Shown here: positions 22,849-62,856 of the stretch, in pieces
How positions within the stretch are numbered: the first letter of the stretch is position 1
How the letters are laid out: every line of letters starts with the position of its first letter
DNA from: Rufibacter glacialis
Lineage (GTDB): Bacteria > Bacteroidota > Bacteroidia > Cytophagales > Hymenobacteraceae
Assembly: GCF_008271745.1 (NCBI RefSeq)
Contig: NZ_VKKZ01000010.1
Span: forward strand, 186,001-250,000
Reading direction: 5' to 3'
DNA length: 64,000 nucleotides
Translations under genes and position numbers: made by a program
Notes under the pieces: model-generated
Told to the model about the DNA's origin: nothing
The model's input: the letters and a program-made list of their open reading frames with translations, nothing else
Databases searched by the model: none

Positions 22849-24885
22849 ATGGATTTCCAATTAACGTCAGAATTCAAACCAACCGGAGACCAGCCCAAAG
22901 CCATCAAGGAACTGGTGAAGGGCATCAAGACAGGGGAGCATGCCCAGGTGTTGCTGGGAGCTACCGGTACCGGTAAAACTTTTACGGTGGCCAACGTGAT
23001 CCAGGAGGTGAAGAAGCCTACGCTGGTGCTGTGCCACAACAAAACCCTGGCTGCACAGCTCTACGGCGAGTTCAAGCAGTTCTTCCCCAACAACGCGGTG
23101 GAGTACTTCATCTCCTACTATGACTACTACCAGCCCGAGGCCTACATCGCTTCCTCTGATGTCTTCATAGAAAAAGACCTGCAGATCAACGAGGAGATTG
23201 AAAAGCTTCGGCTCCATGCTACTTCGGCGCTGCTATCGGGCCGCCGTGATGTGATCGTGGTGGCCTCGGTGTCCTGCATCTACGGTATAGGCAACCCAGA
23301 GGAATTCGGGAAGAACGTGATCCCGCTGGCCCCGGGCATGAAGGTGAGCCGCAACAACCTGCTCTACCAGTTCGTGTCCATTCTCTATAGCCGCACCGAG
23401 GTGGAGTTCACACGTGGAACCTTCCGGGTGAAGGGCGATACCGTGGACATTTATCCGGCTTACGCCGATTTTGCCTACCGCATCTACTTCTGGGGCGATG
23501 AGATCGAGTCCATCCAGCGCATAGACCCTGAGTCCGGAAGAAAGATTGCCGATGAGGAAGGAATCTCGCTGTTCCCGGCCAATCTCTTCGTGACGGGCAA
23601 AGACACCCTGAACCAGGCCATCAATGAGATCCAGTTTGACATGGTGGCCCAGCACGAGTACTTCCTCAAAGAAGGCCGCGACAATGAAGCCAAACGCATC
23701 AAGGAGCGGACTGAGTTTGACCTGGAGATGATCCGGGAACTGGGCTACTGCTCAGGCATTGAGAACTATTCCCGCTACTTTGACCGCCGTGAGCCCGGTG
23801 CCCGTCCGTTCTGTCTGCTGGACTATTTCCCAGATGATTTCCTGATGGTGATTGACGAGAGCCACGCTACCCTGCCGCAGGTACGCGCCATGTGGGGCGG
23901 TGACCGCTCGCGCAAGACGGCGCTTGTAGAGTATGGGTTCCGGTTACCCGCTGCCATGGACAACCGTCCGCTTACGTTCAACGAGTTTGAGAGCGTCATG
24001 CACCAGGTTATCTTCGTGAGTGCCACTCCCGGCGACTACGAGATCCAGAAATCGGAGGGCGTGGTGGTAGAGCAAATCATCCGCCCGACGGGCTTATTAG
24101 ACCCCGAGATTGAGATCAGGCCCAGCCAGAACCAGATTGATGACCTGCTGGACGAGGTGGACAACCGCATCAAGTCCGGTGACCGGATTCTGGTGACCAC
24201 GCTCACCAAGCGCATGGCCGAGGAACTGACCAAGTACATGGAGCGCCTCAACATCAAGGTGAAGTACATCCACTCTGAGGTGAAAACCCTGGACCGCGTG
24301 GAGATTCTGCGCGAGCTGCGCCTGGGTATCATTGACGTGCTCATTGGCGTGAACCTGCTGCGCGAGGGTCTTGACTTACCCGAGGTGAGTTTGGTGGCCA
24401 TTCTGGACACCGACAAAGAAGGCTTCCTGCGCGACCAGCGTTCCCTGATCCAGACCATTGGCCGTGCCGCCCGGAACGAGAACGGAAAAGTAATCATGTA
24501 CGCCGACCGGATGACGGGTTCTATGCAACGCGCCATTGACGAGACCAACCGCCGCCGGAACACGCAGATAGAGTACAACCTGGAGCACGGCATTACGCCC
24601 AAAACCATTCTCAAGTCCAAGGAAGCCATCATGGAACAGACCTCCGTGGCCGACTCTAACCGCACCAAGGAACCAAAAGCGTATGCCGGACCAGATGAAA
24701 GTCTCATGTCTATTGCCGCTGACCCAGTGGTGCAATACATGAAGAAAGACGAGCTGGAGAAAGTGATCAAGAAAACCGAGAAGCAGATGGAAGCCGCCGC
24801 CAAAGAGCTGGACTTCCTGCAGGCCGCCAAGTTCAGAGACGAACTGGCTGAGCTGCGTAAACTGCTCAAGAGTAAGAAAGATTAA
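22849..24885 (+). CDS. uvrB: Excinuclease ABC subunit B
   Basis: 678 aa from ATG 22849 ([18 protein letters not shown]). It is the damage-verifying helicase-like subunit of nucleotide excision repair, loaded by UvrA2 and then binding UvrC. Walker A is GATGTGKTF. The beta-hairpin motif is [15 protein letters not shown], helicase motif II is DESH, and motifs V/VI include [30 protein letters not shown] (given here in overview) and QTIGRAARN. The C-terminal UVR motif ([20 protein letters not shown]) binds UvrC. Length and motifs are complete. It is monocistronic with its own promoter. GC content and codon use rise here compared with the EPS operon. Confidence 0.98.
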
Positions 24886-24909
24886 TTTCTCAATAGTCGA
24901 GGTGGTTTC

Positions 24910-24947
24910 TGATTTTGGGCTCATTTTCAGAAATGAAGCCAAAAACG
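24910..24947. repeat. Dispersed imperfect palindrome after uvrB
   Basis: ATTTTGGGCTCATTT-tcag-AAATGAAGCCAAAAACG: TTTTGG.GC.TCATTT pairs with AAATGA.GCCAAAA. It starts 25 nt after the uvrB stop and directly precedes a REP-like element. It is one of the best-formed members of the family. Confidence 0.6.
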
Positions 24948-24955
24948 GAAAGGGT

Positions 24956-24993
24956 GGAGACACTCGTAGGAGCTGCGCACACTACGAGGTCTT
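24956..24993 (+). repeat. REP-like element, copy 1
   Basis: A 38-bp element with stem CTCGTAG/CTACGAG around a loop containing GCTGCGCAC; the stem base is GAC-A/GTC with a bulged A. It is exactly the reverse complement of 25274-25311 and differs by one base from 60145-60180. It is related to the elements flanking the RAYT gene at 30.1 kb. Confidence 0.8.
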
Positions 24994-25017
24994 GTGAGTT
25001 ACCGCTATTGCGGATTC

Positions 25018-25050
25018 AAACCTCACAGGTTTTTAAAACCTGTGAGGTTT
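25018..25050. repeat. CCTCACAGG palindrome, copy 1
   Basis: AAACCTCACAGGTTTT and its exact reverse complement surround a single base. The T-rich end makes it terminator-like for uvrB. Related palindromes lie at 25340-25370 and 35761-35791. Confidence 0.75.
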
Positions 25051-25087
25051 TTTTCTTAAGAATCAGGACAAACTAAAATATTTATTT

Positions 25088-25176
25088 TGTCATCCTGGAA
25101 GGATCTCGGTAGCGAACTAAGAAAGCTATAAATGATCGCCATTGCCGTTTGCCACCGAGATCCTTCCAGGATGACA
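25088..25176. repeat. 23-bp inverted repeat pair (CATCCTGGAAGGATC family)
   Basis: 25088-25110 and 25154-25176 are exact reverse complements separated by 43 nt. Each arm also has an internal ATCC...GGAT symmetry. They lie inside the two REP-like copies at 24956 and 25274, so the region is nested. No gene is supported in the 510-nt gap 24886-25395. Confidence 0.75.
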
Positions 25177-25273
25177 GGGAGAGAAGAATGTCCAAGTACT
25201 GGAAAACTTTTGAGGCTAGGCTATATAAAGTGTTTCAGGAAGCAATTAAAAAATGCCAACACCGCCTACTCCA

Positions 25274-25311
25274 AAGACCTCGTAGTGTGCGCAGCTCCTA
25301 CGAGTGTCTCC
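25274..25311 (-). repeat. REP-like element, copy 2 (inverted)
   Basis: Exact reverse complement of 24956-24993 over 38 bp. It forms the right partner of a head-to-head REP pair about 280 bp apart. Confidence 0.8.
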
Positions 25312-25339
25312 GCCAACAGCGTTGATATTTACAAAAAAA

Positions 25340-25370
25340 GACCTCACAGGTTTCAAAAACCTGTGAGGTC
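25340..25370. terminator. CCTCACAGG palindrome, copy 2, likely terminator
   Basis: GACCTCACAGGTTT-caa-AAACCTGTGAGGTC, a 14-bp perfect stem. It sits 25 nt beyond the stop of the minus-strand molybdenum oxidoreductase operon and has a T run on that strand, so it probably ends that transcript. Confidence 0.7.
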
Positions 25371-25395
25371 TGGCGTTTTCAGGCTGTTTTTCAAC

Positions 25396-27651
25396 TTATA
25401 CCATCATCAGTTTGTCCGGCGTGATGGGTAATTCTCTGATCCGCTTGCCCGTGGCGTTGAAGATGGCGTTGGCAATAGCCGGGGCTACGCCGATGATGGC
25501 GATTTCCCCGATGCCTTTGGTGCCGTTGGGGTTATTGATCAGGTCGGGTTTGTTCACGAACAGGGAGGAGATATTGGGCGCATCGGCGTGCACCGGTACG
25601 TGGTACTCAGCCAGGTCTTTGGTCACGTACCGCCCAAACCGGTGGTCCATAATTGCGCCTTCGGTCAAGGCCATACCAATACCGCCTACCGCGCCGCCAA
25701 TCATCTGGTTGCCGGCGGTCTTGGCGTTGATGATGGTGCCGGCATCAGCGCAGGAGACCATGTTGGTCACGCGAATCTGGCCCGTCAGGGGGTGTACCTG
25801 CACCTCGGCAAAATGCACGGAGTAGGAGTACATGGAGTATTTCTGCCGGAGACTCGCGTCTGGGCTTGATTCTTCCGTCACTTCCAGCTCCGGTAGGTTC
25901 TGTTGTTTCAGAATATCACCAAAGGAAAGACGGGCCGAAGGGGAGGCCGTCAGGGAAACGTAGCCGTCTTTGAACGTCAGGTTTTCCACGGTGGCGCCTT
26001 TGAAGCTGGTGTCTGAATTGCCGGCTACCATGCTGGTTAAGCGCTTCTTCAGCACCTGGCACACGGCATGCACCGCAGAACCCACCGTAGCCACCGTAGC
26101 AGAACCACCCTGGCTGGGCGAAGGCGGATACAGGGAGCTACCCAACTCAAACACGATCTTCTCGGGCGGCAGGCCCAGGTTTTGCGCCGCAATCTGGACC
26201 ATGGCCGTTCCGGTTCCCGGCCCAATATCCGTGGTGGCGCTTTGCATGACCAGCGTGCCGTCTTTGTGTAAGGTGGCTTTCACTTTGGCGCGGCCGCGGT
26301 TCGCCCCGAAGGTGCCCACGCCCATGCCGTAGCCTACCAGCCATTCGCCGTTTTTCACCATGCCGGGTTGCAGCTGCCGTTTTCTCCAGCCAATCTTCTC
26401 AGCCCCCATCTGCATGGCCTCCTTCAGGTATTTGGTAGACCAGGGCAGGTTCTTCTCGGGGTCTTTGTCGGTGTGGTTGATCAAGCGGAATTCCAGCGGG
26501 TCCATACCAATCACGTAGGCCATCTCGTCAAGCGCACATTCCAGGGCGAAGGCGCCCGTTGCCTCACCGGGGCCACGCATCCAGATGGGCGTGCTTACGT
26601 TCAGGGGCAGGATGCGGTAACGGGTGGTCACATTGGGGCTGGTGTACATCATGCGCGTCTGCTGCAAGGTAGACTCGGTGAACTCCTCGTAAGAAGACGT
26701 CTGCCCAATGGCCTCGTGCGTGATGGCGGTGATTTTTCCGTCTTTGGTGGCGCTCATGCCCACTTTCTGCCACGCATGCGGCCGGTAACCCACCATGGTG
26801 AACATCTGCTCGCGGGTGAGCATGAGTTTTACGGGGCGGTTTACTTTCTTGGCGGCAATGATAGCGGCGGTTTCGTGGGGCCAGGTGTGTAGCCCGTTCC
26901 CAAAAGCCCCGCCCACATAGGTGGCAATCACTTTCACGTTTTGAACCGGAATTCCCCAATCTTTGGCAAAAGCGTTCTGGGTGCCAATCACCGCCTGGGT
27001 TTTGTCATAGACGGTGAGTTTGTTGTCGGCCTCCCAGTGCGCGATGATGGACTGCAACTCCATGGGGTTGTGGAATTCCGTAGGAATCACGTATTCGCTC
27101 TCAATCTTCAGCGGCTCGGTTTTGTAGGCGTCTTCCTTGCCCCGCACGTAGTCATTGAGACCATGCTTGGGGTTGCGTTTGGCCACCGTGGGCAAAACCG
27201 CCTTGGACACGTTTTGGTGGAAATCAGTGGCGTGTTTTTCTACATTGTACTGCACCTTTACCAGTTTGGCCGCGTACATGGCTCGCTCCAAGGTGTCTGC
27301 TACTACCACCGCAATGGGTTGGTCGTTGAAGTGAATCTGGTTATCAATGAAAACCTGTAGGGGCTTGCCCGCGGGTTTAGGCTCGGTGGGGTGCGCCTCC
27401 TGGACATACCCGGGAACTTTAATCGAGTTCTGGTAATGGAGCACAGCCAGGACCCCAGGCGCATTCTCAGCTCTTTTGGTGTCAATGCTTTTGATGCTGC
27501 CCCTGGCGATGGTGCTGCCCACCAAGACGGCGTGCGCCATGTTGGGCAACTCATATTCAGCGGAGTATTTGGCGGCACCCGTCACTTTCTGGCGGCCATC
27601 TACCCGGTCCATCGGCTTGCCAACGGTATCTTGGAAGAAATAATCTTTCAT
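25396..27651 (-). CDS. Molybdopterin-binding subunit of aldehyde oxidoreductase (xanthine dehydrogenase family, YagR/PaoC-like)
   Basis: 751 aa, the large subunit of a three-subunit molybdenum hydroxylase. The N-terminus KPMDRVDGRQKVTGAAKYSAEY matches the family's start. VGGAFGNGLHTWPHE corresponds to the GGxFG molybdopterin motif, and MRGPGEATGAFALECALDEMAY carries the conserved RGP(G) region. The C-terminal GGIGMALTEG and KGIGEIAI include the expected catalytic Glu position. Such enzymes oxidise aldehydes or purines by inserting water oxygen at the Mo centre. No signal peptide is visible; export would be by co-transport with the Tat-bearing FeS subunit. It is the last gene of the operon, 12 nt after the FAD subunit. 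No dedicated cofactor-insertion chaperone is visible. Confidence 0.92.
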   Translation of the reverse strand: MKDYFFQDTVGKPMDRVDGRQKVTGAAKYSAEYELPNMAHAVLVGSTIARGSIKSIDTKRAENAPGVLAVLHYQNSIKVPGYVQEAHPTEPKPAGKPLQVFIDNQIHFNDQPIAVVVADTLERAMYAAKLVKVQYNVEKHATDFHQNVSKAVLPTVAKRNPKHGLNDYVRGKEDAYKTEPLKIESEYVIPTEFHNPMELQSIIAHWEADNKLTVYDKTQAVIGTQNAFAKDWGIPVQNVKVIATYVGGAFGNGLHTWPHETAAIIAAKKVNRPVKLMLTREQMFTMVGYRPHAWQKVGMSATKDGKITAITHEAIGQTSSYEEFTESTLQQTRMMYTSPNVTTRYRILPLNVSTPIWMRGPGEATGAFALECALDEMAYVIGMDPLEFRLINHTDKDPEKNLPWSTKYLKEAMQMGAEKIGWRKRQLQPGMVKNGEWLVGYGMGVGTFGANRGRAKVKATLHKDGTLVMQSATTDIGPGTGTAMVQIAAQNLGLPPEKIVFELGSSLYPPSPSQGGSATVATVGSAVHAVCQVLKKRLTSMVAGNSDTSFKGATVENLTFKDGYVSLTASPSARLSFGDILKQQNLPELEVTEESSPDASLRQKYSMYSYSVHFAEVQVHPLTGQIRVTNMVSCADAGTIINAKTAGNQMIGGAVGGIGMALTEGAIMDHRFGRYVTKDLAEYHVPVHADAPNISSLFVNKPDLINNPNGTKGIGEIAIIGVAPAIANAIFNATGKRIRELPITPDKLMMV

Positions 27652-27663
27652 AAGGAAGGAGGG

Positions 27664-28647
27664 TTAAACGGCGCCTGCCGCGTTTTTCAGGGCCTGCACA
27701 ATGGTGTTAGGACCCAATTTCAACTTGAACTGGTTGTGCTCAAACGCTTTCGCGCCGCGCATGGCCACCTCGGCGGCCTGCCGGAACGTGGCCTCATTGG
27801 CGGGTTTGCCGGCCAGGAACTGCTCGGCTTCCTGCAAGCGCCAGGGTTTGTGCGCCACGCCGCCCATGGCCAGCCTGGCTGATTTGATGTTACTGCCGTC
27901 TAAATCCAGTGCCGCTGCCACCGAGACCAAGGCAAAGGCATAGGAGTTGCGGTCGCGCACTTTGAGGTAATGGACGTTTTTGGTGTACGGGTTCTCCGGA
28001 ACATCCACGGCCATGATCAACTCGCCCTGCTGCAGGTTTGTGTGGATGTGGGGTGTATCACCAGGCAGCCTATGGAACTCCCCAAACGGGATTTTCCTGT
28101 CGCCTTTAGGGCCCGACACCAGCACTACGGCATCTAGCGCTACCAAGGCCACGTTCATGTCACTGGGGTTCACGGCAATGCATTTGTCACTGTGCCCGAA
28201 GATGGCGTGCATGCGGTTATAGCCTTCAATAGCGCTGCACCCGGTGCCGGGTTCGCGTTTGTTGCAGGGCATGGCGGTGTCATAGTAATAAGGGCAGCGC
28301 ACGCGTTGCATCATGTTGCCGCCCACGGTGGCCATGTTCCGGAGTTGCGCCGAGGCGCCTGCGTTCAAGGCCTGAGACAGCAACGGATGCTTCTCCAGCA
28401 CCAATTTGTCCTCGGCCACGGCCCCGTTCAAGGCCAAGGCCCCTATACGGACGGTGCCGTTTTCCCGCTCTATTTTTCTTAAGGGAAGTTTATTGATGTC
28501 TACCAGTTTTTCGGGGTTCAGGACGTCGCGTTTCATGAGGTCTACCAGGTTGGTGCCTCCGGCGATGAACATGGCCGTCTGGTCTTTGGCTACCGTATCA
28601 ATGGCCGCCTTGGGTTTGCTGGGCTTCACGTATTGGAATGGAATCAT
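27664..28647 (-). CDS. FAD-binding subunit of aldehyde oxidoreductase (YagS/PaoB-like)
   Basis: 327 aa CO-dehydrogenase/xanthine dehydrogenase medium subunit. FAD-binding motifs are AMFIAGGTNLVDLMK and LRNMATVGGNMMQRVRC. A Cys-rich insert (RCPYYYDTAMPC, then EPGTGC and DKC) matches the extra [4Fe-4S] site known from E. coli PaoB. It passes electrons from the 2Fe-2S subunit onward. Start ATG 28647 overlaps the upstream gene's TGA by 4 nt (ATGA), indicating translational coupling. Confidence 0.92.
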   Translation of the reverse strand: MIPFQYVKPSKPKAAIDTVAKDQTAMFIAGGTNLVDLMKRDVLNPEKLVDINKLPLRKIERENGTVRIGALALNGAVAEDKLVLEKHPLLSQALNAGASAQLRNMATVGGNMMQRVRCPYYYDTAMPCNKREPGTGCSAIEGYNRMHAIFGHSDKCIAVNPSDMNVALVALDAVVLVSGPKGDRKIPFGEFHRLPGDTPHIHTNLQQGELIMAVDVPENPYTKNVHYLKVRDRNSYAFALVSVAAALDLDGSNIKSARLAMGGVAHKPWRLQEAEQFLAGKPANEATFRQAAEVAMRGAKAFEHNQFKLKLGPNTIVQALKNAAGAV

Positions 28648-29300
28648 ACTTTGTGCCCTCCGTTTTTAACCTCTTTGATGGCGTTCACAATGTTGGGGTA
28701 GGCGCCGCACCGGCAGATATTGCCGCTCATGTACTCCCTGATCTCGTCATCAGAATCAGCGTGGCCTTCTTTGATGCACGCCACCGCGCTCATGATCTGG
28801 CCCGGCGTGCAGTACCCGCACTGGAACCCGTCGTGCTTGATGAAGGCCTCCTGCATGGGGTGCAGCTTATCTCCGTTGGCGAGGCCTTCAATGGTGGTGA
28901 TTTCTTTGCCGTCTGCCATGGCTGCCAACGTGAGGCAAGACAAAACGCGCTGCCCGTCTACGTGCACAGTGCAGGCTCCGCACTGCCCATAGTCGCAGCC
29001 TTTCTTGGTGCCGGTGAGGTGCAGTTGTTCGCGCAGCAAATCCAGCAGGGTGGTACGCGGTTCTATGGAAAGTTTTTGCTTTTTGCCGTTGATGCCCAGG
29101 GTCACTTTCACCTGCTCAAATACTGCGGCTACCTTTTCTTCAAATTTCAGTTCTGCGGCTTTGAGGGCCGCCGGGGGAGCCAACGCCAGCGCCGTGAGCA
29201 AGGATGATTGCTTCAGGAAGGTTCGGCGCGCGTCTGAATGTTGTGCTTGACCACCCTCGCCCTCCGGAAGATGTTGGTCGGGGAATTTATCTTGGGGCAT
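28644..29300 (-). CDS. 2Fe-2S subunit of aldehyde oxidoreductase with Tat signal (YagT/PaoA-like)
   Basis: 218 aa. The N-terminal RRTFLKQSSLLTALALAPPAAL is a twin-arginine signal; note RRTFLK. The plant-type ferredoxin domain has CDYGQCGACTVHVDG...LSC, and the second domain has GFQCGYCTPGQIM and ENICRC-like GNICRCGAY, giving two 2Fe-2S clusters. It is the first gene of the operon and the only subunit with an export signal, so the folded heterotrimer is expected to be carried to the periplasm. A ~35-residue hydrophilic region precedes the Tat motif. The physiological substrate is unknown; related PaoABC detoxifies aromatic aldehydes. Confidence 0.93.
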   Translation of the reverse strand: MPQDKFPDQHLPEGEGGQAQHSDARRTFLKQSSLLTALALAPPAALKAAELKFEEKVAAVFEQVKVTLGINGKKQKLSIEPRTTLLDLLREQLHLTGTKKGCDYGQCGACTVHVDGQRVLSCLTLAAMADGKEITTIEGLANGDKLHPMQEAFIKHDGFQCGYCTPGQIMSAVACIKEGHADSDDEIREYMSGNICRCGAYPNIVNAIKEVKNGGHKV

Positions 29301-29418
29301 ATATCTCTAGGTTGGGGTACGAATTCAACTACTAGTATACGCAGGCAACCCCTTAGAAAGTGTATAAATAACAGGTAAATTCACTCGTTTTTCCGTTCAT
29401 CTGAAATTCCGGGGCATA

Positions 29419-29460
29419 GTTGTTTCCAGGCTAAAATCTGAAAACAAGGCCTGAAACGAG
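29419..29460. repeat. Dispersed imperfect palindrome upstream of GNAT gene
   Basis: GTTTCCAGGC-TAAAATC-TGAAAACAAGGCCTGAAAC. Outer GTTTC/GAAAC and GGC/GCC arms fit the family; the inner part is degenerate. A half-like copy (CGTTTTTCCG...CTGAAATTCCGG) precedes it at 29386-29412. Confidence 0.45.
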
Positions 29461-29512
29461 GGCCTGAGGTCTGATTTTTCTTTTGTCACAGTCTGCACGA
29501 GTCCTTCTTCCG

Positions 29513-29520
29513 TACCTTTG
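29513..29520 (+). promoter_or_regulatory. -7 promoter element of the GNAT gene
   Basis: TACCTTTG matches TAnnTTTG exactly, 15 nt before the ATG at 29536. The nearest upstream TTG is 27 nt away, too far for a good -33, so the promoter is only partly matched. Confidence 0.45.
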
Positions 29521-29535
29521 CCTGAAAATCGTTGT

Positions 29536-30069
29536 ATGTCCGCTCCCCTTTCCCATGCCTTCACCTTCCGTCCAGGAACTTCCGCTGATGCGGCTTTGCT
29601 CGCCGATTTAGGCTGGCGCACCTTTGACGAGACCTTTGCTGCCTACAACAAACCCGAGGACATGGAAGTCTTTCGCCCCACCATGTATGCCCCAGAAATA
29701 CAGGCCGCCGAGTTAGCCGATCCCCACACGGAATTCCTGTTGGTGGAAGCAGCAGGGGAGGCAGTAGCCTATGTGAAATGGAACACCGCCCCGGCCCCCG
29801 CTGAAATATCCGGGAAAAGACCTTTCCAAATTAGCCGCCTCTATCTGTTGAAAGCCTGGACCGGCCGCGGTTTAGGGGATACTTTGATGAAAACGAGCTT
29901 AGGACGCGCGCAGCAAAACGGCCATGACGTGGTGTGGCTCACCGTGTGGGAAAGCAACGAGCGCGCCATCCGGTTTTACCAAAAGTACGGGTTCAAAGAA
30001 GTAGGCGAGTTGGCGTTTGTGTTGGGCGCAGACGTGCAGCGGGATTTGTATATGCAGCGGGAGGTATAG
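29536..30069 (+). CDS. GNAT-family N-acetyltransferase
   Basis: 177 aa from ATG 29536; an in-frame TTG 18 nt upstream would overlap the -7 element and is rejected. The Gcn5-related fold is visible: TFRPGTSADAALLADLGWRTFDETF at the N-terminus, FQISRLYLLKAWTGRGLGDTLM with the acetyl-CoA loop (Q/R-x2-G-x-G/A equivalent TGRGLG), and VVWLTVWESNERAIRFYQKYGFKEVGE as motif B. Members acetylate amines such as polyamines, antibiotics or protein N-termini; the acceptor cannot be told. The stop is immediately followed by the left REP element of the RAYT unit. Confidence 0.9.
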   Translation: MSAPLSHAFTFRPGTSADAALLADLGWRTFDETFAAYNKPEDMEVFRPTMYAPEIQAAELADPHTEFLLVEAAGEAVAYVKWNTAPAPAEISGKRPFQISRLYLLKAWTGRGLGDTLMKTSLGRAQQNGHDVVWLTVWESNERAIRFYQKYGFKEVGELAFVLGADVQRDLYMQREV

Positions 30070-30072
30070 GGT

Positions 30073-30111
30073 GAGACGCTCGCAGGTCCTCCGGACGCTA
30101 CGAGGTCTTTT
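30073..30111 (+). repeat. REP-like element left of RAYT
   Basis: GAGACGCTCGCAGGTC-n-GACGCTACGAGGTCTTTT. The imperfect stem is CTCGCAG/CTACGAG with GAC/GTC at the base and one bulged base. The GACGCT half-motif appears twice. It starts 4 nt after the GNAT stop. Confidence 0.8.
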
Positions 30112-30143
30112 GACAAACGCTTTTGAATCTCGTATATGGCTAA

Positions 30144-30755
30144 ATGCAAAAGACGAAGGATTTAGAGCCTTGTAAGTTCTACCATATTTATACACGAGGC
30201 AATAACACTGAAACGGTTTTCCTGAACCAGGAAAGTTACTTTTACTTCCTGAAGTTATACCGCAAATATGTAGCGCCGTTTGTGCATACTTACTGCTACT
30301 GCCTGTTGCCTAATCATATACATTTCTTGATTCAGGTAAGGGAGGAAGAAGATCTATTCAAAAGAAGCGAACAAAACCAAGAACTGATACCCATACGCAT
30401 CCAAAGGCAATGGGGGCATTTACTAAATGCTTTTACAAAAGCAATGAACACCCGTTATGGGAGAGTTGACAGCCTGTTTCAGAAGCGATTCAGAAGGAAA
30501 GAAGTCACCTCTGAGGCATACTTTACGAACCTGATTTTCTACATCCATTTCAACCCACAACATCACGGCTTAATTCAGGATTTCAAGGATTGGCCCCACT
30601 CTTCTTACCATAGCCTCCTTTCCAAAAAGCCAACTAGCCTGGAGCGCCACACAGTTCTTGAGTGGTTTGGAGGCAAGACCCATTTGGAAAGGTTCCACCA
30701 AGAAAATGCAGACTTTCGCGTCATCACTTCTTTCATAGAAGAAGACGAATTGTAA
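30144..30755 (+). CDS. REP-associated tyrosine transposase (RAYT, IS200-like Y1 family)
   Basis: 203 aa. The N-terminus CKFYHIYTRGNN and the run FYFLKLYRKYVAPFVHTYCYCLLPNHIHFLI match the Y1_Tnp/TnpA_REP fold; the metal-binding HUH motif is His58-Ile-His60. The downstream Tyr-containing helix YFTNLIFYIHFNPQHHG corresponds to the nucleophile region. RAYTs cut single-stranded REP hairpins at specific sites and are thought to spread or maintain REP elements; they are usually domesticated. The gene is intact, with no frameshift, and lies between two inverted REP-like copies whose relatives recur elsewhere in this window. Codon use is more AT-rich than in its neighbours, suggesting transfer. Confidence 0.9.
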   Translation: MQKTKDLEPCKFYHIYTRGNNTETVFLNQESYFYFLKLYRKYVAPFVHTYCYCLLPNHIHFLIQVREEEDLFKRSEQNQELIPIRIQRQWGHLLNAFTKAMNTRYGRVDSLFQKRFRRKEVTSEAYFTNLIFYIHFNPQHHGLIQDFKDWPHSSYHSLLSKKPTSLERHTVLEWFGGKTHLERFHQENADFRVITSFIEEDEL

Positions 30756-30767
30756 TACCGCCAATTC

Positions 30768-30807
30768 AAAAGACCTCGTAGCGTCTGAAAGACCTGCGAG
30801 CGTCTGC
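30768..30807 (-). repeat. REP-like element right of RAYT (inverted)
   Basis: Reverse orientation of the left element with about three central differences. It contains two related half-sites, GACCTCGTAGCGTC and GACCTGCGAGCGTC, and lies 12 nt past the RAYT stop and 13 nt before the radical SAM stop. Confidence 0.8.
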
Positions 30808-30820
30808 ACCAAAAACAACC

Positions 30821-33028
30821 TTACACCACCAACAACCCACGCTCCCGCAGATCCAGCCACGTATCTGTGATGAGGAACTCCTGGAAGGTGAACATCTGGC
30901 CTTGGGGGTAATCCGTGGCTAGGTCTTTTAAAAGATACTTGGTGCCGTAATCCTCAGAAAGGCGGGTGAGCCAGGTATGCAGCCAGTGGCCTACTTCCGG
31001 CGAAGTGCGGATTTCGTATTCCTCGGTTTTTTCCGTGAAGGTGAGCACTGCATTATGGAAGGTGCGGCCTTTTTTGGTTTTGGTGACCACTTCTACCTCC
31101 GGTGCATTTCCCAGCCAAACCACGCGCAGGTTCTGTTTCTCAGAATCCGGCTTGCCAATCGCCTCTACGGCTTGGGCAATCATTGTCTTGGGGTGCGAGG
31201 CCCGTGGTACCTTGAAGTCAAACCAGAACGAAAGCGGCTCCTCCAGGCCTATGCCGTGCATGTAGTTATAGAGCGCTTTCGCCAAACCAGCCCCGAAAAG
31301 CTCGTGGTCGGCGCCTTGCGGGTCTTCGTGCCATAGGTCATTATCTGCAAAGAGGCCGGGTTCCGGACCTACTTTCACCACACCGTATTTCTCGGGGTTC
31401 TTGCCCACCGGGCTGTGCGCCGTCATGGAGAACCGGTGCCAGTAGCCACTCTGGATCACGTTCTGGGCAAACAGTTGCCGCACTACTTCCAAAGAGTCAA
31501 TGGTCTCTTGGGCGGTCTGCGTGGGGAAACCGTACATGAGGTAAGCGTGCACCATGATGCCTGCCGCAGTGAAATCCCGCGTGACGCGGGCTACCTGCGC
31601 AATGCTCACGCCCTTCTCCATCTTCGCCAACAGGCGGTCAGACGCTACTTCCAAGCCGCCCGAGACGGCAATACAGCCACTGGCGGCCAGCAAGCGGCAA
31701 AGGTCGGCGGAGAACGTTTTCTCAAACCGGATGTTGCCCCACCAGGTAATCTTCACGCCCCGGCGCAGCAACTCAATGGCTAAATCGCGCAGGGCCAGCG
31801 GCGGCGCGGCCTCATCCACGAAGTGGAAACCAGTTTGGCCGGTCTGCGCAATGATCTGCTCAATGCGGTCTACCAGCAGGGTGGCGGGCGCGGTCTCGTA
31901 GCGCGAGATGTAATCTAAGGTGATATCACAGAAAGAGCAGCGTTTCCAGTAGCAACCGTGGGCGATGGTGAGCTTGTTCCAGCGCCCGTCAGACCAGAGG
32001 CGGTGCATGGGGTTGAGCACTTCCACCACGCTCAGGTACTCATGCAGGCGTAGGTCACTATAATCAGGCGTACCTACCTCGTGGTGTGGGATATCGGCAT
32101 CCTGGGCGCCGTTAAGGTATTGGACTTCGCCGTTCAGCAACATAAACGTGCGTTGCAGTTGCTCTATGGAACGCTGGCCCTGGAAATGCTCCAGCAGTTT
32201 GAGCCACGGACCTTCGCCGTCATCTAAGGTAATGAAGTCAAGGTAGTGGAAAATGCGGGGCTCACGCAGGCTTCGCAGTTCAGTATTGGGATAGCCACCG
32301 CCCATGAGGGTTTTGAGGTGCGGGTACTTCTGCTTGATGAACTGCGCTAGGCGCAACGCACCGTACAGGTTGCCGGGGAAAGGCACGGTAAACCCCACCA
32401 CGTCCGGCTGTACTTCCTGCAGGCGCTCGTCCAGAATGTCCAGCAGCATCTGGTCTACCAGGTTGGGCGTGGTTTGCAGCTCTTCCTCCAGCGGGTCAAA
32501 AGAGGTGGCGCTCATAGCCAGTTTATCCGCGTAGCGGCTAAAGCCGAAGTGCGGGCAAACCGTCTCCTTGATCAAATCTGCCAGATCCTCCAGGTACAGG
32601 GTGGCCAGGTGGCGGGCTTTGTCTGAAATACCCATGGTGCCGAAAGCTTCCTCCAGATCAGCCAATTGCAGAAACCTGCTGGCCTCCGGCAGAAAGGAGC
32701 CCAGGGCAATGGGGTGGGCCAGGGTGCTGTCGCGGCCCTGCAGAAAGCGGATGACCGGCTCAATGGTGTCCAGGTAAGACTTGCGCAGGCGCACCATGCG
32801 CTGGCTATTGTCAGACAGGTCATAGGTGCCATCTAGAATGGCCTGGAACACCTGGTGCAGGCCTTTCCGGGAGAACAGGCGCAACACCAGCTCCAGCCCG
32901 AAATCTGCCTGCGTGACGTCAAACCCTCTGCCGCGCAGAAAACCTTTGATATAGGCCGTGGCCGGATAAGGCGTGTTGAGCTGAGTGAGCGGCGGCGTGA
33001 GGAGCAGAATTTTAGGAGCGGTTGCCAA
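30821..33028 (-). CDS. B12-binding-domain radical SAM protein
   Basis: 735 aa from a TTG at 33028; no ATG precedes the first beta strand KILLLTPPLTQLNTPYPAT, and a -7 promoter element ends 17 nt upstream. The N-terminal region is a cobalamin-binding-like Rossmann domain (LMGGGYPNTELRSL near residue 245). The radical SAM core has HGCYWKRCSFCDI, with the CxxxCxxC-type cluster near residue 365. The C-terminal ~200 residues have no recognised family. B12-dependent radical SAM enzymes methylate or rearrange unreactive carbons in lipid, bacteriochlorin or natural-product pathways. No clear pathway partner is adjacent. The cobalamin uptake locus 25 kb away could supply its cofactor. Confidence 0.88.
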   Translation of the reverse strand: MATAPKILLLTPPLTQLNTPYPATAYIKGFLRGRGFDVTQADFGLELVLRLFSRKGLHQVFQAILDGTYDLSDNSQRMVRLRKSYLDTIEPVIRFLQGRDSTLAHPIALGSFLPEASRFLQLADLEEAFGTMGISDKARHLATLYLEDLADLIKETVCPHFGFSRYADKLAMSATSFDPLEEELQTTPNLVDQMLLDILDERLQEVQPDVVGFTVPFPGNLYGALRLAQFIKQKYPHLKTLMGGGYPNTELRSLREPRIFHYLDFITLDDGEGPWLKLLEHFQGQRSIEQLQRTFMLLNGEVQYLNGAQDADIPHHEVGTPDYSDLRLHEYLSVVEVLNPMHRLWSDGRWNKLTIAHGCYWKRCSFCDITLDYISRYETAPATLLVDRIEQIIAQTGQTGFHFVDEAAPPLALRDLAIELLRRGVKITWWGNIRFEKTFSADLCRLLAASGCIAVSGGLEVASDRLLAKMEKGVSIAQVARVTRDFTAAGIMVHAYLMYGFPTQTAQETIDSLEVVRQLFAQNVIQSGYWHRFSMTAHSPVGKNPEKYGVVKVGPEPGLFADNDLWHEDPQGADHELFGAGLAKALYNYMHGIGLEEPLSFWFDFKVPRASHPKTMIAQAVEAIGKPDSEKQNLRVVWLGNAPEVEVVTKTKKGRTFHNAVLTFTEKTEEYEIRTSPEVGHWLHTWLTRLSEDYGTKYLLKDLATDYPQGQMFTFQEFLITDTWLDLRERGLLVV

Positions 33029-35720: not shown

Positions 35721-35742
35721 TCTGGAAGAACTGCGAGGGTCT
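35721..35742 (-). repeat. Degenerate half REP-like element
   Basis: TCTGGAAGAACTGCGAGGGT matches the second half of the REP copies at 30768 and 62690 with about three differences in 22. The other half is missing. It may be a decayed copy. Confidence 0.5.
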
Positions 35743-35760
35743 AGTCCTGCTACATAAAAA

Positions 35761-35791
35761 GACCTCACAGGTTTTTAAAACCTGTGAGGTC
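35761..35791. terminator. CCTCACAGG palindrome, copy 3
   Basis: GACCTCACAGGTTTT and its exact complement around one base (15-bp stem), with an A run before it giving a T run on the minus strand. It follows the minus-strand gene ending at 35844 and probably terminates it. Confidence 0.7.
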
Positions 35792-35800
35792 TACGATTAT

Positions 35801-59794: not shown

Positions 59795-60549
59795 CAGGAA
59801 GTTTGGAAAGGCCACTACACCAGCGCCTAAAATTTACGGACAGCTGTTTTCTGGCCGTTTTCCGGTAAACCAGGCAGAAGCGGAAAAGTAGTTTTGGGAC
59901 TACCTGAACGGGGCTTCGGCGGGAAATCACAAGGGCCCTCTCCTGTAGAATCTGTTTTAGGGCTGCTTTGCGAAAAACAGACCCAAAACCCTGGTATTGA
60001 AACGTAGAGACCAGGCACTGCCTTGTTTCCTCCACTCCACGCATTGTTGTCTACCGTTGGTTTTTCTGCAGATGAGACCTCCTTTCCTCGCTCTCCATTT
60101 TGAGGCTGGTTAAAGGAAAATAGGCAGTAAACAAGGTTAAGCGTAGACACTCGCAGGAGCTGCGCACACTACGAGGTCTTAGGGAGCAGGCGGCAGGGGA
60201 AAGTGAACCAAAAAACTTGGCGCGGCCGAGAACGGAGTTAGTTTCCAGATTTGGCGGGAGCCGTAAGCAGGTTAGCGAAGCAGCAGGTATAGTTTCAGAC
60301 AAGTTTGTTGTTTTAGCGAAAGTTTTAGCAGAAAAATAGAGTCTTTTTGGTGAGGCAATAAAGGGTGCTCTTTAAGCTGGCGTGTGCCGCATAAATTATT
60401 TGTTTTTGCGTTCTTTTAACGGAAACAGGCCTAAAACCTGCGCTTGCGGCTATGAATCCCTACCCAGATGTAACTTTTTGCAGAACCTTGAGTTTTTAGC
60501 ACTGTATTTGCCATCAGCTTGCCGTCTTTCATTCCCCTTTATTTACTCC
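59795..60549. other. 755-nt gap with palindromes; no gene
   Basis: Copies of the dispersed imperfect palindrome occur at 59843-59872 (CTGTTTTCTGGCCGTTTTCC...GGTAAACCAGG), 59952-59990 (CTGTTTTAGGGCTGC...AAAACC) and 60401-60440 (TGTTTTTGCG...GGCCTAAAACCTG). A REP-like element lies at 60145-60180. No other gene or promoter is recognised. An N-terminally extended frame of the DUF4919 gene runs through 60382-60549 but precedes its signal peptide. Confidence 0.6.
60145..60180 (+). repeat. REP-like element, copy 3
   Basis: AGACACTCGCAGGAGCTGCG...CTACGAGGTCTT, 36 bp, one base different from 24956-24993. It lies alone in the gap before the DUF4919 gene. Confidence 0.8.
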
Positions 60550-62399: not shown

Positions 62400-62856
62400 T
62401 TGCTGGTTGTCAGTTGCTAGTTGTTAGTGGGGCGATGACCTGATGTTTTTCTTCCTCCATGGCTGGCGCGAATCCTTCGCTTGTTCTCCTTCACTGGTTT
62501 TATTTCGCTAGCGCGAGTCTCCAGACTCGTGTCTCCAGATAATGGGTAGTCTCCAGACTACCCTCGCTGCCCGCAGCGAAACAGTTTCTACCACCTTCAA
62601 CGGCTGTTACTTTTTAACCTTTTTCACGCAAGCCTTTATCACGCATCTTCCTTCTCTAGAAGAGAAGTTTCTGCTACCCAATCTCCCTAAAGACCTCGTA
62701 GTGTCTGGAAGACCTACGAGTGTCTATGGCGCCCACCTGTGGTTCCCGGCGAGTCTGGAGGCTCGAATTATCCCTTGTCACGAGACGTTAGTCTCGCGCC
62801 AGGAAAGCTCCGGTCAAATGCGCAGCCACTAATCACTAACAACCAATCCCTAACAA
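62400..62856. repeat. 457-nt repeat-rich gap, partly MITE-like
   Basis: The left flank has AGTTGCTAGTTGTTAGTGG (near 62412-62430) and the right flank the inverse-like CCACTAATCACTAACAACC (62826-62844). Inside are hairpins GCGAGTCTCCAGACTCG, GGTAGTCTCCAGACTACC (62545-62562) and CGCTGCCCGCAGCG, related GCGAGTCTGGAGGCTCG (62749-62765) and GAGACGTTAGTCTC motifs, and a REP-like element. No coding sequence is supported. Confidence 0.6.
62690..62725 (-). repeat. REP-like element, copy 4
   Basis: AAGACCTCGTAGTGTCTGGA...CTACGAGTGTCT. Stem CTCGTAG/CTACGAG is identical to copy 1, but the loop differs (TGTCTGGAAGAC) and is closer to the RAYT-flanking copies. Confidence 0.75.

Follow-up and report, generated by a model that had tools for sequence, protein, structure and literature searches.

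The 64-kb window, by which we mean the whole stretch of DNA that was analysed, contains a RAYT gene enclosed by two inverted hairpin elements, with a GNAT acetyltransferase gene on one side and the gene of a radical SAM/B12-binding protein on the other. Further copies of the element are found elsewhere in the window (Table 1).

Table 1. Genes and hairpin elements at and around the RAYT locus, in window coordinates.
Feature	Position	Strand	Remarks
GNAT acetyltransferase gene	29518..30069	+	adjoins the cassette on the left; used to locate the orthologous site in relatives
Left REP element core, type A	30074..30110	+	37 nt; tail toward the RAYT gene
RAYT gene, clade A	30144..30755	+	203 aa; HUH motif NHIH (H58, H60); Tyr133, within YIHFNP, predicted to be catalytic
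Right REP element core, type A, inverted	30769..30805	-	tail toward the RAYT gene
Radical SAM/B12-binding protein gene	30821..33028	-	right neighbour; convergent
REP element, type B	24958..24994	+	left arm of a +/- pair
REP element, type B	25273..25309	-	right arm of the pair with 24958..24994; interior 278 nt
Possible half element	35727..35743	+	17-nt match with 3 mismatches; under the profile threshold
Solitary REP element, type B with one change	60145..60181	+	
Solitary REP element, mixed type	62689..62725	-	

The reading frame of the RAYT gene is open and intact. Its product, RAYT-A, matched the NCBIfam model NF047646 (REP_Tyr_transpos) with an E-value of 1.6e-16 and 60.5 bits, the curated cut-off being 80, and a Pfam search with the protein returned no family at E≤1. 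When a profile of 16 RAYT homologues was compared with the PDB, 4er8 was the sole sequence at E≤0.1 (E 1.8e-6), and a fold search with the AlphaFold model of RAYT-A (pLDDT 88) again placed 4er8 at the top (E 1.8e-9), followed by IS200/IS605 transposases. The best PDB match by both profile and fold is therefore E. coli TnpA-REP, a RAYT bound to a REP hairpin. Residues H58, H60 and Y133 are invariant in all 16 homologues, and Tyr133 aligns in the profile alignment with Tyr115 of 4er8, which we take to be the nucleophile of that enzyme. RAYT-A has the fold of an HUH transposase with a single tyrosine (Y1). The E. coli residues for the reading of GTAG, as listed in PMC6006769, are W94, Q95, E100, H101 and R104; in the profile alignment with 4er8, RAYT-A keeps Q95 and differs at the other four of the five.

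The arms on either side of the gene (30074-30113 and 30766-30805) are inverted with respect to each other and are 93% complementary over 40 nt, with 3 mismatches. The first-pass annotation had described an intact HUH transposase gene of the RAYT kind at 30144-30755, between two inverted elements of ~39 bp that differ at about three bases, with relatives at 24956, 25274, 60145 and 62690. The reading frame, the NF047646 match, the PDB profile and the fold bear out the first of these statements, the arms agree with the second, and full copies were found within 2 nt of all four positions. At the half element that it placed at 35721, the match covers 17 nt (35727-35743) with 3 mismatches and falls under the profile threshold, so that this one is a possible half element at most. 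Searches of the window with a 17-nt arm and up to 3 mismatches gave 6 matches where 0.12 were expected, and those with a 13-nt arm and up to 2 mismatches gave 9 where 0.85 were expected; none of 100 shuffles reached either value, both counts taking in weaker or other-family matches. The 37-nt profile had 6 hits in the window and none in 20 mononucleotide shuffles, with both strands searched. The RAYT gene, its hairpin bracket and the dispersed copies are thus confirmed as real and beyond chance. The intergenic region matching the 24958/25273 pair carries a pair in relatives G011 and G013 too, and one clear arm in G005.

Other repeats are interspersed with these elements. Palindromes of a further type, type C (AGACCTCACAGGTTT..AAACCTGTGAGGTCT and a close form), are located at 25018-25050, 25337-25371 and 35758-35792 of the window, and the copies of CTGTGAGGTC found at 25337 and 35758 are members of this different palindrome family. 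A long hairpin repeat, GTCATCCTGGAAGGATCTC...GAGATCCTTCCAGGATGAC, occupies ~25085-25176 within the 24958/25273 pair, and a related repeat is present in the pair at C10:431601. At ~24906-24949 there is a terminator-like hairpin of the TTTTTGGCCTG..CAGGCCAAAAA type, which is found at several intergenic sites of the genus; hairpins of this type closely adjoin some elements on the outside and may account for the AAACGG that precedes elements.

The element has the sequence AGACRCTCGYAGG-N-CTACGAGGTCTT and folds as a hairpin with unpaired purines. Its flanks are weakly conserved among 72 copies, with about AAA..G....TTGGCR before and TTTTGAGC.RGCGGTAT after the element. In the stem, 92.5% of the pair cells are standard among 69 distinct rows, and 61 cells changed on both sides as against 17.5 in shuffles, in an alignment that was fitted to the structure model and has a few type-C rows within it. 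Covariation among the copies thus supports the stem, compensatory changes having preserved the palindrome. Folded as single-stranded DNA, three elements gave energies of -7.4 to -9.7 kcal/mol; with the element orientation as defined in this analysis, the folding z was -2.5 to -3.6 for the opposite strand and -1.6 to -3.0 for the strand in that orientation. No unpaired GT[AG]G is present at the foot of the hairpin, where GGCRN stands before the stem and a TTTGAGC-like sequence after it.

To follow the element through the own genome (5.32 Mb in 25 contigs), we searched with a covariance model made from the six copies in the window, a check that the first-pass annotation had proposed. With 150 of 977 first-look candidates scored, it gave at least 89 matches at E≤1, at least 85 of them at E≤0.001, and the element is therefore dispersed as anticipated. 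After merging of three that had been matched on both strands, at least 86 distinct places remained, 3 of the 86 being type-C palindromes. Sequence was obtained for 88 of the 89 matches, and 81 of these could be classified by a simple gene caller, leaving 7 unclassified: none was intragenic, 33 lay between convergent genes, 42 between tandem genes and 6 between divergent genes. The 6 of 81 between divergent genes compare with 27% of the intergenic length, an expectation taken from the window alone with a gene caller that covers 76% of it and misses the RAYT gene itself.

Many of the elements are paired. Neighbours less than 1 kb apart formed 23 pairs, three of which are one place read on both strands, and 18 of the remaining 20 have the +/- order of the RAYT bracket; the other two, one -/+ and one +/+, involve a weak match and a type-C palindrome. 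In the 16 of the 18 +/- pairs in which both arms are 37 nt long, the arms differ by a mean of 1.75 of 37 positions, as against 4.33 when re-paired, and none of 10,000 shuffles was as low. The interiors of 16 pairs (the two RAYT brackets being excluded) have no common sequence except further repeats. Two accounts of the pairs were tried and rejected: that they are deletion derivatives of the RAYT unit, since the 16 interiors hold no clear RAYT fragment (a single 19-nt interior stretch that matches the RAYT-B unit at E 0.004 was disregarded), and that gene orientation sets pair orientation, since pairs were found in convergent, tandem and divergent contexts. At the empty site of a single element no clear target or duplication was seen, the flanks being too diverged.

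The own genome has two RAYTs of this group, RAYT-A of clade A in the window and RAYT-B of clade B on contig C25, which are 65% identical. RAYT-B is bracketed by two inverted elements of type B. This pairing extends to relatives: type-A arms are present at all seven fetched loci of clades A and A2 (one arm with one change) and type-B arms at both fetched clade-B loci. The brackets of other fetched loci consist of a related element (L039), one shared half (L038) or other palindromes of varying score; L041, L042, L052 and L054 had no bracket in the first scan, and L041 and L054 are preceded by a type-B element and followed by a type-C palindrome. A search of the own genome with NF047646 gave 12 matches, which represent ten RAYT-family genes, and two of the ten, those of clades A and B, have a bracket of A/B elements. 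No A/B element was found in the fetched flanks of the eight others. Other long inverted palindromes surround seven of these eight (L226, L249, L251-L255), with scores of 20-58, where 30 shuffles of a single locus gave no score above 12.5; that of L249 is of the clade-D type, and the fetched flanks of L250 held no inverted palindrome. In a family search of genomes, an A/B element was near 2 of 30 RAYT-family loci, both of clade D (L230 and L232, within 1.5 kb).

Element numbers were also compared with the enzymes present. Type-A copies with at most one mismatch number 4, 8, 10, 12, 14 and 51 in the six genomes with RAYT-A or A2, and 0, 0, 1, 1, 1, 2, 3, 4, 6 and 11 in ten other genomes of the genus. 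By one-sided rank tests that ignore kinship, type-A copies are commoner with RAYT-A/A2 (p = 0.003, or 0.0095 without the bracket copies) and the total of elements is higher in these six genomes (p = 0.028), and type-B copies do not follow RAYT-B (2 versus 14 genomes, p = 0.11). Two genomes without RAYT-B, G013 and G010, hold 42 and 21 type-B copies.

Two further RAYT clades have their own palindromes. No clade-C RAYT was found in the own genome, and the likely enzyme of type C is found in relatives G011, G012 and G021. The clade-C gene at the clpB site (L040, L041, L054; G021, G012, G011) contains its own REP palindrome, CTCACAGG...CCTGTGAG, which lies in frame between the HUH and Tyr motifs and encodes TSQV.(K/E)TCEV; such insertions are called unique to subclass 2.4 in PMC6006769. 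The clade-D RAYT (L205 in G010 and L206 in G013, at clpB, and L232 in G015) has its own inverted hairpins, GTGCGTAGAG..CTCTACGCAC and GCCAATCTCC.GATTGGC, and its units at these three loci are nested inside or beside A/B elements.

We then compared the distribution of enzyme and element among relatives. A RAYT at E≤1e-10 was found in 21 of the 59 genomes searched, and elements were found in all 16 genomes of the genus, Rufibacter, with 11 to at least 147 in the 15 relatives. The first-pass annotation had named elements as frequent in RAYT-less relatives as a finding that would speak against its reading. The outcome was mixed, because nine genus relatives without a clade A, A2, B or C hit (E≤1e-10) still hold 11 to at least 147 elements, yet all nine have some RAYT-family match and type-A copies do track RAYT-A/A2. 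Since a RAYT-family match was present in all 21 genomes searched for the family, the use of "RAYT-less relatives" as a clean control was dropped. Another genus of the family, g3, has 35-99 elements in four of five genomes, and two of its genomes, G022 and G030, have elements and no RAYT hit at 1e-10. Among the g3 matches listed (G017, G022, G026 and G030), picked by eye, 20 of 22 close pairs have the order -/+ with gaps of 10-223 nt, the remaining two being RAYT brackets; the order in the own genome, by contrast, is +/-.

The GNAT gene served to locate the orthologous site, and a match of at least 69% identity was present in all 15 genus relatives. The site between the GNAT and radical SAM genes holds a RAYT cassette in G000, G001 (with two internal stops), G011, G013 and G015, an element pair without a RAYT in G010 and a decayed pair in G002. 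The two genes are separated by a gap of 18-49 nt in G003, G006, G009 and G014 and by a spacer of ~1.0-1.4 kb in G004, G005 and G007; in G008 and G012 the radical SAM gene is out of reach of the fetched GNAT locus. The profile search found no element in the fetched loci of G004, G005, G007, G008 and G012. A second site, at clpB, holds clade B in G000 and G001, clade C in G011 and G012 and a nested clade-D gene in G010 and G013; in the other genomes fetched it contains repeats, a short spacer or other sequence.

The RAYT gene of G013 and G015 is inverted relative to both neighbours, and it has the other direction in G000, G001 and G011. The species tree (11 genomes, 14 proteins, 8,308 columns, G001 left out) rejects G013 and G015 as sisters (AU p = 0.001), a rejection that the tree of the RAYT gene does not share (p = 0.109). 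Therefore at least one inversion or re-insertion has taken place, or two switches if the cassette descended vertically along the species tree, because that tree rejects the two as sisters. The arms most alike among the five loci are those of G015 (52 nt, perfect) and G013 (50 nt, one mismatch), although the A2-locus arms, not known to be inverted, are equally alike (54 nt, one mismatch). The cassette might thus be an invertible segment, flipped between its two REPs by the enzyme or by recombination at the hairpin arms, and the likeness of arms within pairs, which is far above chance, is what repeated arm-arm recombination would give. As a whole, we regard this inversion reading as a tentative and rather unlikely one.

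We conclude that the locus is very probably a REPtron, in which a RAYT, a Y1 HUH single-strand DNA transposase resembling subclass 2.6, lies between inverted copies of its own element, dispersed as singles and inverted pairs. This conclusion draws on the anatomy of the locus, the fold family of the enzyme, the dispersed family, the clade-specific pairing of enzyme and bracket, the extragenic location and the locus shared with relatives. From these, the binding, nicking and copying of the element are predicted, as are the strand on which the enzyme acts and when it does so. The hairpin, exposed as single-stranded DNA at the replication fork, would be bound by the RAYT, which would nick near the hairpin foot via Tyr133 and copy or re-join the hairpin elsewhere in intergenic DNA; the RAYT gene itself would mostly stay put and be inherited with its locus. 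Against the REPtron reading we count the failure of type B to track RAYT-B, the elements in relatives without RAYT-A, the lack of a GT[AG]G foot, the four changed GTAG-reading residues and the lack of a clear single-element empty site.

Alternatively, the REP-RAYT-REP cassette could be an autonomous insertion sequence of ~730 bp whose ends are inverted, from which the dispersed pairs derive in the manner of MITEs. The IS-like outer ends in several relatives (TTGGCGC or GGCGC with GCGCCAA), the patchy presence of the cassette at the GNAT|SAM site and the related A2 cassette at ~4.5 kb (G001) and ~5 kb (G005) from the site of the GNAT gene are consistent with such an origin. However, there are only two such genes, 65% identical, for about 80 elements in the genome, so that the several near-identical transposase-bearing copies per genome of an IS200/IS605-like element are lacking; the common content of the 16 pair interiors is other repeats only, and the clade-A loci occupy one site in five genomes. 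We therefore consider an insertion sequence improbable.

Elements selected by the host as transcription terminators or mRNA stabilisers, with the RAYT incidental, would be extragenic and rare between divergent genes, as observed, and the TTTT that follows the hairpin and the persistence of elements in relatives without cognate enzymes point in the same direction. This explanation is quite improbable in view of the sites that are filled or empty in different relatives, the absence of a clear orientation bias in tandem contexts (24 versus 18) and a terminator scan of 24500-31500 that listed two type-C palindromes and none of the four A/B elements there. It is very unlikely that movement of the elements depends mainly on other enzymes of the RAYT family, of which every relative has some (clade D, for example), and not on the bracketed gene. 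The inverted hairpins of the clade-D gene are its own and of a different kind, and 28 of the 30 RAYT-family loci have no A/B element nearby. In favour of this reading, every genome searched has a family match, L230 and L232 lie close to A/B elements, and type B is abundant in G010 and G013, which have clade D at clpB.

With the locus read as a REPtron, Rufibacter offers a comparative system for REP biology outside Proteobacteria, in which two related enzyme clades occur with two related hairpin subtypes. One genome has ten RAYT-family genes, nine of them enclosed by an inverted palindrome, and orthologous sites in close relatives are filled, empty or occupied by another RAYT clade, which makes for a useful comparison. 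The system also offers a test of hairpin recognition by an enzyme that lacks most of the residues for reading GTAG.

The first-pass annotation considered a REP family of this shape to be undescribed, which does not hold for the kind: subclass 2.6 (Quentin 2018, PMC6006769) comprises Bacteroidetes RAYTs flanked by atypical hairpins without GT[AG]G and with copies elsewhere in the genome, and most of it is equated there with Bertels' RAYT group 5. The literature searched, which included few subscription journals, held no paper naming a Rufibacter REP family or describing RAYT inversion. The family is therefore a new one within a known Bacteroidetes kind. Unusual features are the inversion of the RAYT between its arms in two of five species at one site, the different RAYT clades at one clpB site and the resemblance between the arms of a pair.

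The Rufibacter RAYT shares with subclass 2.6, as its motifs are tabulated in PMC6006769 (NH[LIV]H, WQ and YIH[QN]NP), a Bacteroidetes host, an NH[LIV]H motif in the form NHIH, atypical flanking hairpins without GT[AG]G and genomic copies. By these published motifs, it differs in having FQ where WQ is expected and YIHFNP, one place off YIH[QN]NP, and its HuH-Tyr distance is about 73-75, compared with a median of 82 given for the subclass. According to Nunvar 2010 (PMC2817692), canonical RAYTs always lie between inverted REPs, and inter-REP segments are unrelated. Like the REPtron of Stenotrophomonas, Pseudomonas and E. coli described there, the Rufibacter system has a RAYT between two inverted REPs, inverted doublets with unrelated interiors and orthologous rayt genes that keep their position; unlike it, the Rufibacter element has a different hairpin without a GT(A/G)G head, and the RAYT is inverted within the bracket in two relatives. 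The TIRYT genes and TIRtrons of Di Nocera 2013 (PMC3733652) combine RAYT-like genes with inverted repeats that are unrelated to GTAG REPs, share a GGGGWSAS motif and are in some cases repeated genome-wide, whereas in Rufibacter two RAYT clades, themselves related, are paired with two related subtypes of the element.
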